From Natrialba chahannaoensis JCM 10990 (GTDB lineage: Archaea; Halobacteriota; Halobacteria; Halobacteriales; Natrialbaceae): 64,000 nucleotides of DNA. The notes below the pieces were generated by a model that was given only the letters and a program-made list of their open reading frames with translations, searched no databases and was not told where the DNA came from. Numbering within the stretch: position 1 is the first letter of the stretch; every line of letters starts with the position of its first letter. Below are positions 4,951 through 30,105 of the stretch, in pieces. Made by a program: the position numbers and the translations under genes. The stretch is from positions 46,500-110,499 of the forward strand of contig NZ_AOIN01000099.1 of assembly GCF_000337135.1 (NCBI RefSeq), given 5' to 3'.

Positions 4951-6786
4951 ATGAGCGAGCCGCGCGTCGTCACATCCTTCGAATCGTTCCGAGCCGCCCT
5001 CGAGTCAGCCGACGGTGAAACTGGGCGTTCGGACGGAACGGCGCGCGGACCGATTCGCGTCCCGGTCGAGGTCACCACGACAGTCACCGATCCGTTTCTG
5101 GCGTACCGCCGCGCCCGAGTAGGGCGTTCGCGAGACGCGATCACGGGTGAGCAAACGGACGGATTCGACACGAACGGCGCATTTCTCGAAACGACGGGCG
5201 GCCAGCCCGGCTGGGGCTACTTCGGCGTCGAGCCGGTCGACCGCCTGCGAGTCACCCCCGACGCAGTTACGCGCCAGCGTTCGGACGAGACAGACGAAGC
5301 CACCGGCGCTAGCGCACCGACACTCGCCGCACTCGAGGGACTCCTCGAAACAGACGGCCTCGCCCGCGGCAACTGTACGGTCCCGTACCCGTGTGGTGTG
5401 ATCGGGTGGCTCTCCTACGACGTGGCACGGGAACTGGAGGACCTCCCCGAATCGGCGGTCGACGACCGGGGACTGCCACAGCTCGAAGTCGCGACGTACG
5501 ATCGGCTGGTGTCGTGGGAGGAACCAATCGAGGGCGACGAGGTGACGCTGCGAATTACGGCGTGTCCGCGGGTTCGCGGTTTGTCGAACGCTGCCTCGGC
5601 TGATCCGTCCACCGCCTCCACAGCACTTGCCGCCGACCCTGTCTACAGTCGGGACGACCTCGAAGCCGCCTACGAACACGGCCGCGACCGCGCACTCGAG
5701 TTGGCCCGGCGCGTACAGGACGGCGACGCCACGATCGGTGAGCCACCGATCGACACCACGGAGTCAACGTTCGAAAGCACCTGCGGCCGCGAGACGTTTG
5801 CCGAGCGCGTTCGGCGAGTCAAGGAGTACATCCGCGACGGCGACACGTTCCAGGCGAACATCTCCCAGCGACTGGTCGCCCCCGCGGCGGTCCACCCCGT
5901 CGCGGCCTACGACGCGCTCCGGCGTGTGAATCCCGCGCCATACTCGTGCCTACTCGAGTTCGGGGCGGCGGATCTGGTGAGTGCGAGTCCGGAGTTGCTG
6001 CTCGAGCGCGAAGTGGCACACACCTCGACGGCCGATCGCGGCCACCGGTCGAGAGCGCACGCCAACGATTACGTCAGAACCGAGCCCATTGCAGGCACTC
6101 GACCACGCGGTGGGACACCAGAACAGGACGCCGAACTCGAGGCCGACCTGCTGGCAGACGAGAAGGAACGCGCCGAGCACGCAATGTTAGTCGACCTCGA
6201 GCGAAACGATCTCGGAAAGGTCTGTGAATACGGCTCCGTCGAAGTCTCGGAGTACCGCCGGGTCGACCGCTACGCCGAGGTGATGCACCTCGTCTCGGAC
6301 GTGACTGGCCGGCTTCGAGCCGACGAGACGCTCGCCGACGCCATCGCGGCGGTGTTCCCCGGGGGGACGATCACTGGTGCACCCAAGCCGCGGACGATGG
6401 AGATCATCGACGAACTCGAGTCCACTCGACGCGGCCCGTACACGGGCAGCGTCGGGATCTTCGGCTTCGACGGGCGGGCAACGCTCAACATCGTGATCCG
6501 AACCCTGGTCCGTCAGGACGCGGAATATCACCTCCGGGTTGGTGCCGGGATCGTCCACGATTCGGAGCCGGAACTCGAGTACGACGAGACGCTGGCCAAG
6601 GCGCGTGCGTTGGTGAACGCGGTCGACGATGCGCTGGGTGAGCGGGCTGAGATGGGTGTCGACGGGGACGGGGAACGCGATGGCGTGAGTGAGGACGGAG
6701 AACGTGATGGAATGAGTGGGAACGGAGAGTGTGATGGAGTGAGCGGGGAGCGAAACGAGATGAACGGAGGTGATCCCGATGAGTAA
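4951..6786 (+). CDS. pabB: Chorismate-utilising synthase component I (aminodeoxychorismate or anthranilate synthase)
   Basis: This 611-aa protein aminates chorismate using ammonia from the adjacent amidotransferase. The C-terminal chorismate-binding half is intact: [20 protein letters not shown] (about 290-310), [10 protein letters not shown] (379-388), [34 protein letters not shown] (about 470-490) and [10 protein letters not shown]. Genomic context (pabA and a pabC-like aminotransferase fully coupled downstream, trpCBA elsewhere) favours 4-amino-4-deoxychorismate for folate/pterin synthesis. However, residue 381 is Ala (PIAGT), the anthranilate-synthase state, where classical PabB has Lys (PIKGT). 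The tryptophan-feedback LLES motif is replaced by FLET (about 78-81). The C-terminus ends in a tandem-repeat tail of about 40 residues that is not part of the enzyme. Confidence 0.85.
6673..6753 (+). repeat. Three 27-bp tandem repeats in the 3' end of pabB
   Basis: Three consecutive 27-bp units (6673-6699, 6700-6726, 6727-6753) encode the 9-residue peptides [18 protein letters not shown] and ECDGVSGER. They add a disordered acidic tail to PabB just before the pabA ribosome-binding site. A partial fourth unit follows. The unit length is a multiple of three, so copy-number change would keep the frame. Confidence 0.85.
6765..6773 (+). promoter_or_regulatory. Strong Shine-Dalgarno that sets the pabA start
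   Basis: GGAGGTGAT is complementary to the 3' end of archaeal 16S rRNA over nine bases and ends five bases before the ATG at 6779. It lies inside the last codons of pabB and decides for ATG 6779 over the in-frame GTG at 6770, which overlaps the motif itself. Confidence 0.85.
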
Positions 6787-25676: not shown

Positions 25677-26480
25677 TCAGTGTTCGACTTCAATCGCGAG
25701 CCCGGCCTCTGCGAGTGCATCCTCCGTCGACAGATCGTCGTGAACGACACCGGAGACGGCGCGAGTGATAGCCTCTGGGTTCTCGTGCTGGAAGATCGAC
25801 CGGCCCATTGAGACGCCAGACCCCCCGGCGTCCATCACGCCGCGGACCATCTCAACCGTCTCGCGGTCAGTGCCCTTCGAGCCGCCGGCGATGACGACCG
25901 GTAAACGAGTCGACTCGACGACGTGCTGGAAACTCTCTGCGTCGCCGCTGTAGCCAGTTTTCACGATGTCAGCGCCGACCTCTTCGGCGAGGCGGACCGC
26001 GTGACCGAGTGCCTCTGGATCCTCAGAGTCAACATCCGGGCCGCGGGCGTAGGCCATCGCAAGCACCGGAATCCCGAACTGGTCTGCCTTGCGAGTCAGG
26101 TCTGCAAGCTGACTGGTCTGTTCGGGTTCGTACTCAGAGCCGACGTTGATGTGGAAGGAGACGGCGTCGGCACCGGCACGAATCGCTTCTTCGACGGTTC
26201 CGGTCAGGCGTTTATCCTGCTCGTCTGGGCCGATCGTCGTCGAACCGTTGAGATGGACGATGTAACCCTTGCCGTTCGTGTTGTCGTGAACACGTGGGGC
26301 GATTCCCTTCTGCGTGAGGACGGCGTCCGCGCCGCCGCGGGTGACGCCGTCGATGGTCGATTCGATATCCTTCAGTCCCTGAACAGCTCCCATCGTGAGG
26401 CCGTGGTCCATCGGGATAATTACGTACGAGTCGTCTGTTCCGATCCGATTCAGTCGTGCTGTGAGTCCTGCTGTAGTCAT
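25677..26480 (-). CDS. aroA': 2-amino-3,7-dideoxy-D-threo-hept-6-ulosonate synthase
   Basis: First step of the archaeal shikimate route: condenses aspartate semialdehyde with a deoxyhexose phosphate, using a class I aldolase-type Schiff base. The 267-aa TIM barrel shows IIPMDHGLTMG (substrate Asp/His), QKGIAPRV, the Schiff-base Lys in ADIVKTGYSGD, VVIAGGSKG and SGVSMGRSIFQHENP (phosphate loop). It is the fourth gene of a trpC-trpB-trpA-aroA' operon, 24 bp after trpA, so expression of the common pathway is tied to tryptophan synthesis. The start is the ATG complementary to 26478-26480. Confidence 0.94.
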   Translation of the reverse strand: MTTAGLTARLNRIGTDDSYVIIPMDHGLTMGAVQGLKDIESTIDGVTRGGADAVLTQKGIAPRVHDNTNGKGYIVHLNGSTTIGPDEQDKRLTGTVEEAIRAGADAVSFHINVGSEYEPEQTSQLADLTRKADQFGIPVLAMAYARGPDVDSEDPEALGHAVRLAEEVGADIVKTGYSGDAESFQHVVESTRLPVVIAGGSKGTDRETVEMVRGVMDAGGSGVSMGRSIFQHENPEAITRAVSGVVHDDLSTEDALAEAGLAIEVEH

Positions 26481-26504: not shown

Positions 26505-27385
26505 TTATGGCTGTTCTGGTTCCGGTGCTTCTTCCCGCCCCTGCTCGTGTCCGTTCCTCTGCTCGCCGCCGCAGCGCGCCCCCCGCTTGAGTTCGCGCGC
26601 CTTGGACTCGAGTGCAGCCGCCGCGGGCGCGTCGCCGGTGCCGTGCTCGGCGATCAGGTCGACGAGCGCGCTGCCGACGATAACGCCGTCCGCGCCGGCC
26701 TCGATGATTTCGGCGGCGTGGTCGCCCTCGCTGACGCCGAAGCCGACGGCCTTGGGGACGTCGTACGCCGAGAGTCGCGTCAGGCTGTCGTGTGTTGCGT
26801 TCGAGACGTCCGCCCGCGCGCCGGTCGTTCCGAGGCGGGCCTGGACGTAGGCGAAGCCCGAGACCTGGGACATAATCCGGTCCAGGCGCTCGCCGGCGGT
26901 CGTCGGCGCGACGATGAAGACGAGGTCGAGGCCGTGGTCGTCGCAGGCGTCACGGAGCGGGTCCGCCTCCTCCGCGGGGAGGTCGGGAACGATGATTCCC
27001 GAGAGGCCCGCGTCGGCTGCTCGCTCCACGAACGGACGGACATCGGGTTCAGAGCCGTACTGGAGGATCATGTTGTAGTACGTCATCACCAGCAGCGGCG
27101 CGTCCGTCTCGAGTTCGTCCACCAGGTCGAAGAACCGCGCGGGCGTCGTCCCGGCGTCGAGCGCGCGGTTGATCGCGGCCTGGATGGTTGGCCCCTCGGC
27201 GATCGGTTCGGAGAACGGCAGCCCGAGTTCGATCAGGTCCGACCCGCCGCGGTCGAGCGCCTCAACGTATTCCTTGGTGTCCTCGAGCGACGGGTCTCCC
27301 GCCGTGATGTACGTAATGAGCGCGGGATGGTTCTCACGGATGGCGGCCTCGATGTCGCTGTCTATCGTCGCTGTCTGTTCACCGC

Positions 27386-27389
<4 letters not shown>
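26505..27389 (-). CDS. trpA: Tryptophan synthase alpha subunit
   Basis: Cleaves indole-3-glycerol phosphate to indole, which is channelled to TrpB. The 294-aa protein has [14 protein letters not shown], the catalytic Glu54 in [23 protein letters not shown], and [13 protein letters not shown]. The second catalytic acid, Asp60 in enterobacterial TrpA (in LADGPT), is Glu65 here (IAEGPT), and the preceding Asp of FSDP is also Glu; this looks like a haloarchaeal variant. The last 25 residues form a basic/acidic tail not in the core fold. ATGA overlap (27386-27389) couples it to trpB. Confidence 0.95.
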
Positions 27390-28653
<1,264 letters not shown>

Positions 28654-28657
<4 letters not shown>

Positions 28658-29529
28658 GTCTGTGTGCGTGTCTCCGTCGTTGCTGTCGGTTCCACTGCCT
28701 CTACCAGTCGTCGTGTGTTGGCGGTCACATCGCTGTCGCCGTCGCCACCATGATCCATGATGGCGCTGCCAACCAGTAACGCGTCCGCGCCCGCGTCGCG
28801 CATCCGACGGACATCCGAAGGAGCAGAAATCCCGCTCTCAGCGATCAGCGTCACGTCGTCCGGGTCCGGTCTCTCGGTTCCACCGCTCGACTCGTCGAGG
28901 CGACAGAGTCGCCTCGCGTGCGGTGCAACAGATTCGAACGTCCCGAGGTCGACCTCGAGTTTTGCGAGATCACGATTGTTCACCCCGATGAGCGTCGCAC
29001 CGGCCTCAAGGGCGTCAGCGAGTTCGTCGCGGTCGTGAACCTCGACGAGGGGCTGGAAGCCGCGCTCGCGAGCGGCTCCGACGAGTTCGTCGAGATTGTC
29101 GACGAACCGGGCGATCAGGAGGACCAGGTCGGATTCGACCACGTCCAGACTTGCCTCCTCGAGGATGAAGTCCTTCCGGAGGACGGGGACGTCGACGGCC
29201 TCTCGAACCTGCCGCAGGGCGTCTGGCGAGCCGCCGAAGTGGGTTGGTTCAGTCAATACTGAGATTGCCGTTGCGCCGCCTGCAACCATCGCTTCGGCCA
29301 GTTCGGCGGGGTCGTCCTCGCGTGTACCGTCCGTCGTCGGACTCGTCGGTTTCACCTCGGCGATGACCGGTACCCGGCCGTCTTGTTCAGTCTGCGCGAC
29401 CGCGTCGAGAAACGACCGCGCGTCGACATCAAGCGGTGCCCGCTCCCGGTCCTGTCCCGCAGCAGCGCGCTCGGCGGCGGCTGCGAGAATGGATTGCACC
29501 GGTGGTGCGAGCTCCGTACCAGAAGTCAT
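28654..29529 (-). CDS. trpC: Indole-3-glycerol phosphate synthase
   Basis: Ring-closing decarboxylase that makes indole-3-glycerol phosphate. The 291-aa TIM barrel has IAEVKPTSP (catalytic Lys), [22 protein letters not shown] (catalytic Lys), [11 protein letters not shown] (Glu), [15 protein letters not shown] and LIAESGIS. A disordered acidic insert (about residues 207-222) sits between the NNRDL and ESGIS strands, unlike bacterial TrpC. First gene of trpC-trpB-trpA-aroA'. Two TGTACA sites lie immediately upstream and probably mediate tryptophan-responsive control. Confidence 0.95.
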
Positions 29530-29532
29530 TGT

Positions 29533-29558
29533 TGTACATCAACGTACTCATTTGTACA
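29533..29558. promoter_or_regulatory. Phased GTAC/TGTACA boxes at the trpC promoter
   Basis: TGTACA occurs at 29533-29538 and 29553-29558; a third GTAC core sits exactly midway (29544-29547), so GTAC recurs every 10 bp on one face of the helix. The distal box overlaps the only TATA-like stretch 25-30 bp before the trpC start. In Methanothermobacter the repressor TrpY binds TRP boxes with consensus TGTACA. That this is a haloarchaeal tryptophan operator is an inference. Confidence 0.7.
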
Positions 29559-29634
29559 AAAGTGTTGCGCCATCCACCGCCACTCACAGTGACGACCGGC
29601 GACTATTCAAGGCCGTGTTTCCTACGGACCGCGT

Positions 29635-30105
29635 ATGGAGGACGTTACGGACGCTGGAATCTACGCGCGGGAGTCGACGTATCTCGACCGGTACGTACAG
29701 CTCGGTGCGGCCAGCGGGCGCGTGCTGACTGTTTCCTTTCCGGACGCACCCGAAGACGACGCCGAAGGCGATCACCCGGTACTCGATCGAATCTTCGAGT
29801 ACTTAGACGGCCTCGAACCGGTCACCTTCGACGACGTACAGGTCGCACTGACGATTCCGACCGACCAGCGCGCCGTACTCGAGCAAGTACAGTCAATTCC
29901 GTACGGTGACCAGGTCGACGTCGCCACGCTTACGCAGATGACGCCCGAACTCGACCCCGACGACCAGGACGACGGTATCCTGGTTCGGACGGCACTCGAC
30001 GAAAATCCAGCGCCCATTCTGATCCCCGACCACCGCGTCCGCGACGGCCCGAGTGCCGCACCACCGACCGTCGAACAGAAGTTACGCTCACTCGAAGAGT
30101 TGTAG
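29635..30105 (+). CDS. Alkyltransferase-like protein (MGMT fold) lacking the active-site Cys
   Basis: 156 aa. The C-terminal half is the DNA-binding domain of O6-alkylguanine alkyltransferases: VLEQVQSIPYGDQVDVATLTQM (recognition helix region), VRTALDENPAPILIP and HRVRDG. The catalytic PCHRV motif is PDHRV here: Asp132 replaces the methyl-accepting Cys. Alkyltransferase-like proteins (ATL) have Trp at this position and recruit nucleotide excision repair. An Asp version is unusual, so the protein may bind lesions without repair, or have a different role. The N-terminal 75 residues form a short alpha/beta domain. Divergent from trpC; 105 bp shared promoter region. Confidence 0.78.
   Translation: MEDVTDAGIYARESTYLDRYVQLGAASGRVLTVSFPDAPEDDAEGDHPVLDRIFEYLDGLEPVTFDDVQVALTIPTDQRAVLEQVQSIPYGDQVDVATLTQMTPELDPDDQDDGILVRTALDENPAPILIPDHRVRDGPSAAPPTVEQKLRSLEEL

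Follow-up and report, generated by a model that had tools for sequence, protein, structure and literature searches.

The closest described counterpart of the locus studied here is the TrpY system of Methanothermobacter thermautotrophicus, in which several palindromes of the sequence TGTACA, the TRP box recognized by TrpY, lie across the trp core promoter. According to work cited in a later study (PMC6737238), Methanothermobacter TrpY acts as a repressor of trp in the presence of tryptophan. Membership of this family is no proof of function, since in Thermococcus kodakarensis the TrpY protein fails to bind the trp promoter (PMC6737238). In that organism trp is likewise controlled through palindromic sites, by Tar (TK0271), which also acts on other aromatic operons; Tar is an activator, has the site TGGACA-N8-TGTCCA and is largely limited to the Thermococcales (PMC6737238). 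A 2019 survey of TrpY homologues stated that no function could be estimated for the branches to which the haloarchaea belong (PMC6737238). When H. salinarum is deprived of aromatic amino acids, all seven trp genes are induced, OE1472F by 12.5-fold (PMC4162585), and a Haloferax paper describes the native trpCBA promoter as not tightly regulated (PMC13147458). Control by TrpY and the TRP box is of a known kind and, as far as the literature searched shows, has not previously been described in haloarchaea; the search found no paper on haloarchaeal trp operators or on binding or mutation of haloarchaeal TrpY, older Haloferax trp papers in subscription journals lying outside it.

We analysed a stretch of 64,000 nucleotides from Natrialba chahannaoensis (the window), in which three sites of this kind stand ahead of trpC (Table 1). 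A sequence-only reading of the window had placed two TGTACA sites and one GTAC core in 10-bp steps upstream of trpC, one box overlapping the presumptive TATA box, and these positions proved exact: the sites start at 29533, 29543 and 29553, with the middle GTAC at 29544-29547, and the near end of the array is 4 bases ahead of the A of the trpC ATG (29529). Read on the trpC strand, the promoter is CGCAAC-A-CTTTTGTACA-AATGA-GTAC-GTTGA-TGTACA-ACA-ATG. By sequence, box 1 lies partly on the TATA-like element and box 3 on the predicted start region. Only 26-33 bp separate the TATA element from the ATG; the transcript is therefore likely to be leaderless, and its initiation region would be covered by box 3. 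In contrast to the Tar system, the sites are TGTACA palindromes at 10 bp, at or downstream of TATA, and the TGGACA-N8-TGTCCA arrangement is absent from the trpC promoter. The genes that follow have the order reported for H. salinarum, trpCBA-OE1472F, with OE1472F last (PMC4162585).

Table 1. Features of the trpCBA-aroA' promoter region and adjoining genes, in window coordinates.
Feature	Position	Strand	Remarks
aroA'-type gene	25677..26480	-	counterpart by position of H. salinarum OE1472F
trpA	26505..27389	-	
trpB	27386..28657	-	
trpC, indole-3-glycerol phosphate synthase	28654..29529	-	Pfam PF00218, E = 5e-65; first gene of operon
TRP box 3, TGTACA	29533..29538	.	-9 to -4 relative to trpC ATG; sequence and column conservation in 20 genomes
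TRP box 2, CGTACT on + (AGTACG on trpC strand)	29543..29548	.	core GTnC(A/G)T across genera
TRP box 1, TGTACA	29553..29558	.	overlaps TATA-like element
TATA-like CTTTTGTA (CTTATGTA in most genera)	29555..29562	-	26-33 bp upstream of trpC ATG
BRE-like CGCAAC	29564..29569	-	conserved (most genera: CGCAAG)
Divergent alkyltransferase-like gene	29635..30105	+	own TATA-like TATTCAA at 29604-29610

On its own, TGTACA is about as common in the window as chance predicts (5 seen, 4.55 expected). The phased arrangement GTAC-N6-GTAC occurs three times against an expectation of 0.42, two of these at the trpC boxes, and none of 100 shuffles attained three. The remaining copy, at 5375-5388 (GTACGGTCCCGTAC), is distant from the trp genes and is probably there by chance. 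A check of the genome for further copies recovered the exact box triple at a single place in 4.3 Mb (106 contigs). The comparison of trpC promoters took in 24 named haloarchaeal loci, 30 others including that of this genome, 20 diverse genomes and 34 loci mostly of further genera. All of them carry the element directly ahead of trpC; the form CGCAAG-n-CTTATGTACA-n5-GTnC-n5-TGTACA-n3-ATG was found in about 55 haloarchaeal genera, and the weakest examples, from single genera of one family, match at 16-18 of 26 scored positions. In the 20-genome set, most columns of the boxes, BRE and TATA hold about 1.1-1.9 bits, the columns upstream average 0.14 bits, and the DNA just 5' of the element is not conserved. 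Conservation over about 55 genera rules out chance as the origin of the boxes, and a lack of conservation in related species, named beforehand as the result that would speak against the idea, was not what we saw.

To gauge the extent of the regulon, a profile built from the sequence of the trpC element alone (model R1) was run on the whole genomes of the 20 diverse haloarchaea. The trpC promoter was the top match in all 20, and the trpD promoter was among the next matches in several. In the 30 trpD loci inspected, GTAC-type cores are conserved at positions 0, +10 and +30 bp, downstream of a TATA element of CTTAAG type that is likewise conserved; both of the split haloarchaeal trp operons therefore have boxes on one face of the DNA. 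In Natrialba, trpDFEG is at G000:C70 and its second trpD box is degenerate (TGGGCA).

It had been remarked that the window holds no TrpY homologue, which is true of the window and not of the genome. Listing the ACT-domain genes of the genome, a search for ACT-domain/HTH regulators proposed in that same reading, recovered a protein of 167 residues (L121, G000:C36:10490-10978) that matches the NCBIfam model TrpY_fam (NF053754) over nearly its full length, with E = 6.6e-70 and above the curated cut-off. Within this genome its gene lies apart from trp, on another contig than trpCBA. A further ACT-domain protein, L120 (G000:C96:8543-8647), belongs to an open frame of 237 codons. TrpY_fam was matched in 238 of 247 Halobacteriota, with one copy in each haloarchaeon sampled; since TrpY is universal in haloarchaea, its co-occurrence with the boxes cannot discriminate there. 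In the TrpY gene tree the haloarchaeal proteins form one group with no sign of transfer. The N-terminal half of the protein contains a predicted HTH, and its putative recognition segment, VDRRVVD, shows little or no variation between haloarchaea and most methanogens. In an AlphaFold model (mean pLDDT 86, pTM 0.55), the N-terminal part is helical and the C-terminal domain is likened by Foldseek to amino-acid-binding ACT domains, IlvN being the best; no solved structure matching TrpY by sequence was found.

Taken together, the three sites very probably form an operator of the TRP-box type for trpCBA-aroA', with a TrpY-family repressor as the most likely binder, tryptophan as the probable corepressor and occlusion of the promoter as the probable mode of action. 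The proposed TRP-box identity, phasing on a single face and repressor logic are all supported. Archaeal proteins that sit on TATA or past it usually prevent initiation, and activators usually bind upstream of the BRE; repression is therefore to be expected here, where all boxes are at or downstream of TATA. The induction of trp in H. salinarum without aromatic amino acids fits a corepressed operator. We infer that TrpY is the binder, tryptophan the ligand and steric occlusion the mechanism at this promoter. In such a scheme the repressor, an HTH and ACT protein that is presumably dimeric and encoded elsewhere in the genome, would bind the TGTACA palindromes, and the 10-bp distance between cores would let several dimers sit adjacent on one face of the DNA. 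Once in place, these dimers would lie over the TATA box and over the initiation point of the leaderless transcript, obstructing TBP/TFB or RNA polymerase. With tryptophan in the ACT domain, binding would probably be stronger, the operon opening when tryptophan is low, and TrpY may also control trpDFEG through the boxes at 0, +10 and +30.

The resemblance to M. thermautotrophicus extends to a small TrpY-family protein with HTH and ACT-type parts in the genome and to the trp genes as targets. Unlike in the methanogen, haloarchaeal trpY is unlinked to trp, its upstream region in the haloarchaea checked has none of the boxes that self-control would need, and the divergent, self-controlling arrangement is absent, a departure from the type case on which operator function does not depend. 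Moreover, the haloarchaeal trp genes are in two operons with boxes at both, and at trpC the three cores keep a strict 10-bp register in a promoter predicted to be leaderless. The proposal gives the universal, single-copy TrpY of haloarchaea a specific and testable set of targets and offers a reason for the joint response of the two split trp operons in H. salinarum. It also describes a compact native operator that could be useful in haloarchaeal genetics, as well as a regulator–operator pair that can be traced through most of an archaeal phylum.

To see whether the boxes reach beyond the haloarchaea, we took 40 genomes of other Halobacteriota and scored, in a region of about 18 kb surrounding trpD, the location of the best TGTACA pair at fixed spacing. 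With a spacing of 10 bp the best pair was in the operon leader at 27 of the 40 loci (two ties; 26.0 after tie sharing), against 0.64 expected. Enrichment is greatest when the spacing is 10, 20 (19.5) or 30 bp (15.3), and the highest value at any other spacing was 9.4. TGTACA ranked first among all 64 six-base palindromes with its 26.0; TATATA came next at 11.1, a score that probably reflects AT-rich promoter background and partial matches. At four more loci (L200, L201, L202 and L212) the best pair is directly ahead of a trpB2-type gene heading the operon, which brings the loci with a best 10-bp-phased pair ahead of the trp operon to 31 of 40. Such a trpB2-type gene, with an M-TKILLDE-like start, opens the trp operon in some methanogens, namely at these four loci and at L220. 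For families f13 and f28, a classification of the methanogen loci as box-less was rejected: the trpB2-type gene, not trpE, heads the operon there, and the pair precedes it. The presence of 10-bp pairs at trp operons of other Halobacteriota makes the element old in the phylum rather than convergent-looking. The control system had been called ancient or convergent; with the phasing shared by methanogen boxes and a TrpY tree lacking signs of transfer, we retain the former within the Halobacteriota and set aside the latter, and ancestral TrpY/TRP-box operators are the best reading for the phylum.

In families f14 and f34 the trp operons have no boxes, and TrpY carries DRKVV in the recognition segment. 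The TrpY proteins of this clade (loci L218, L219, L226 and L227) are on a separate long branch, at 2.62 changes per column with support of 100/100. These sequences are consistent with TrpY and its box having been altered together, and the loss amounts to about one evolutionary event. The f23 and f15 loci without clear boxes retain the usual TrpY helix. At L227 the divergent trpY gene adjoins trpC on the opposite strand and may use another site. Overall, it seems probable that TrpY was the ancestral tryptophan regulator of the Halobacteriota, acting through helically phased arrays at 10, 20 and 30 bp; that it was kept on trp in methanogens and haloarchaea while operons were split and rearranged and trpY became unlinked; and that it was rewired in the clade of f14 and f34, which has an altered recognition helix and no boxes left.

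Could the boxes be a genuine operator that is read by another regulator? Lrp/AsnC proteins resemble TrpY in joining an HTH to a ligand-sensing alpha/beta domain, and they are able to bind palindromes in arrays. The obvious candidate is LrpA2 (Trh1), which responds to aromatic amino acids: it is induced 14.9-fold in their absence in H. salinarum and has been proposed to regulate their synthesis (PMC4162585). Set against this, TrpY_fam is a family separate from Lrp/AsnC with an NCBIfam model of its own, the sequence TGTACA is the TrpY box in Methanothermobacter, and a search for a TGTACA site for LrpA2 returned none. Across the Halobacteriota, moreover, TrpY and the boxes co-occur, and the box-less clade is the one with a changed TrpY helix, and we regard control by LrpA2 through these sites as unlikely. 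Still less credible is that the conserved block is simply a core promoter, in which BRE, TATA and initiator drive a leaderless transcript strongly and no repressor is dedicated to the sites. Box 1 does overlap TATA and box 3 adjoins the start codon, as such a promoter would have it; however, box 2 is between TATA and the start, a place in which one would not expect a core element, and whole-genome searches show the arrangement to be specific to trp promoters. The trpD and methanogen boxes also differ in their distance from TATA or from the start, and they keep the 10-, 20- and 30-bp spacing nonetheless.

A role for the sites in the mRNA, or mainly for the divergent alkyltransferase-like gene, is the least probable of these possibilities, and we give it hardly any weight. 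Given the TATA-to-ATG distance, the transcript should be leaderless and the boxes should lie outside the RNA. The neighbouring gene encodes a protein of 156 residues that weakly matches PF01035, the DNA-binding domain of methyltransferases, and it is found near trpC on the opposite strand in 58 of the 72 haloarchaeal loci checked. The sequence-only reading had suggested that this gene could share the control system. A main role of this kind is not supported: its own TATA-like element is 46 bp past the boxes, and the boxes persist in the 14 haloarchaeal loci where the gene was not found. At the trpD promoters and at the trp promoters of methanogens, the boxes stand beside other neighbours.
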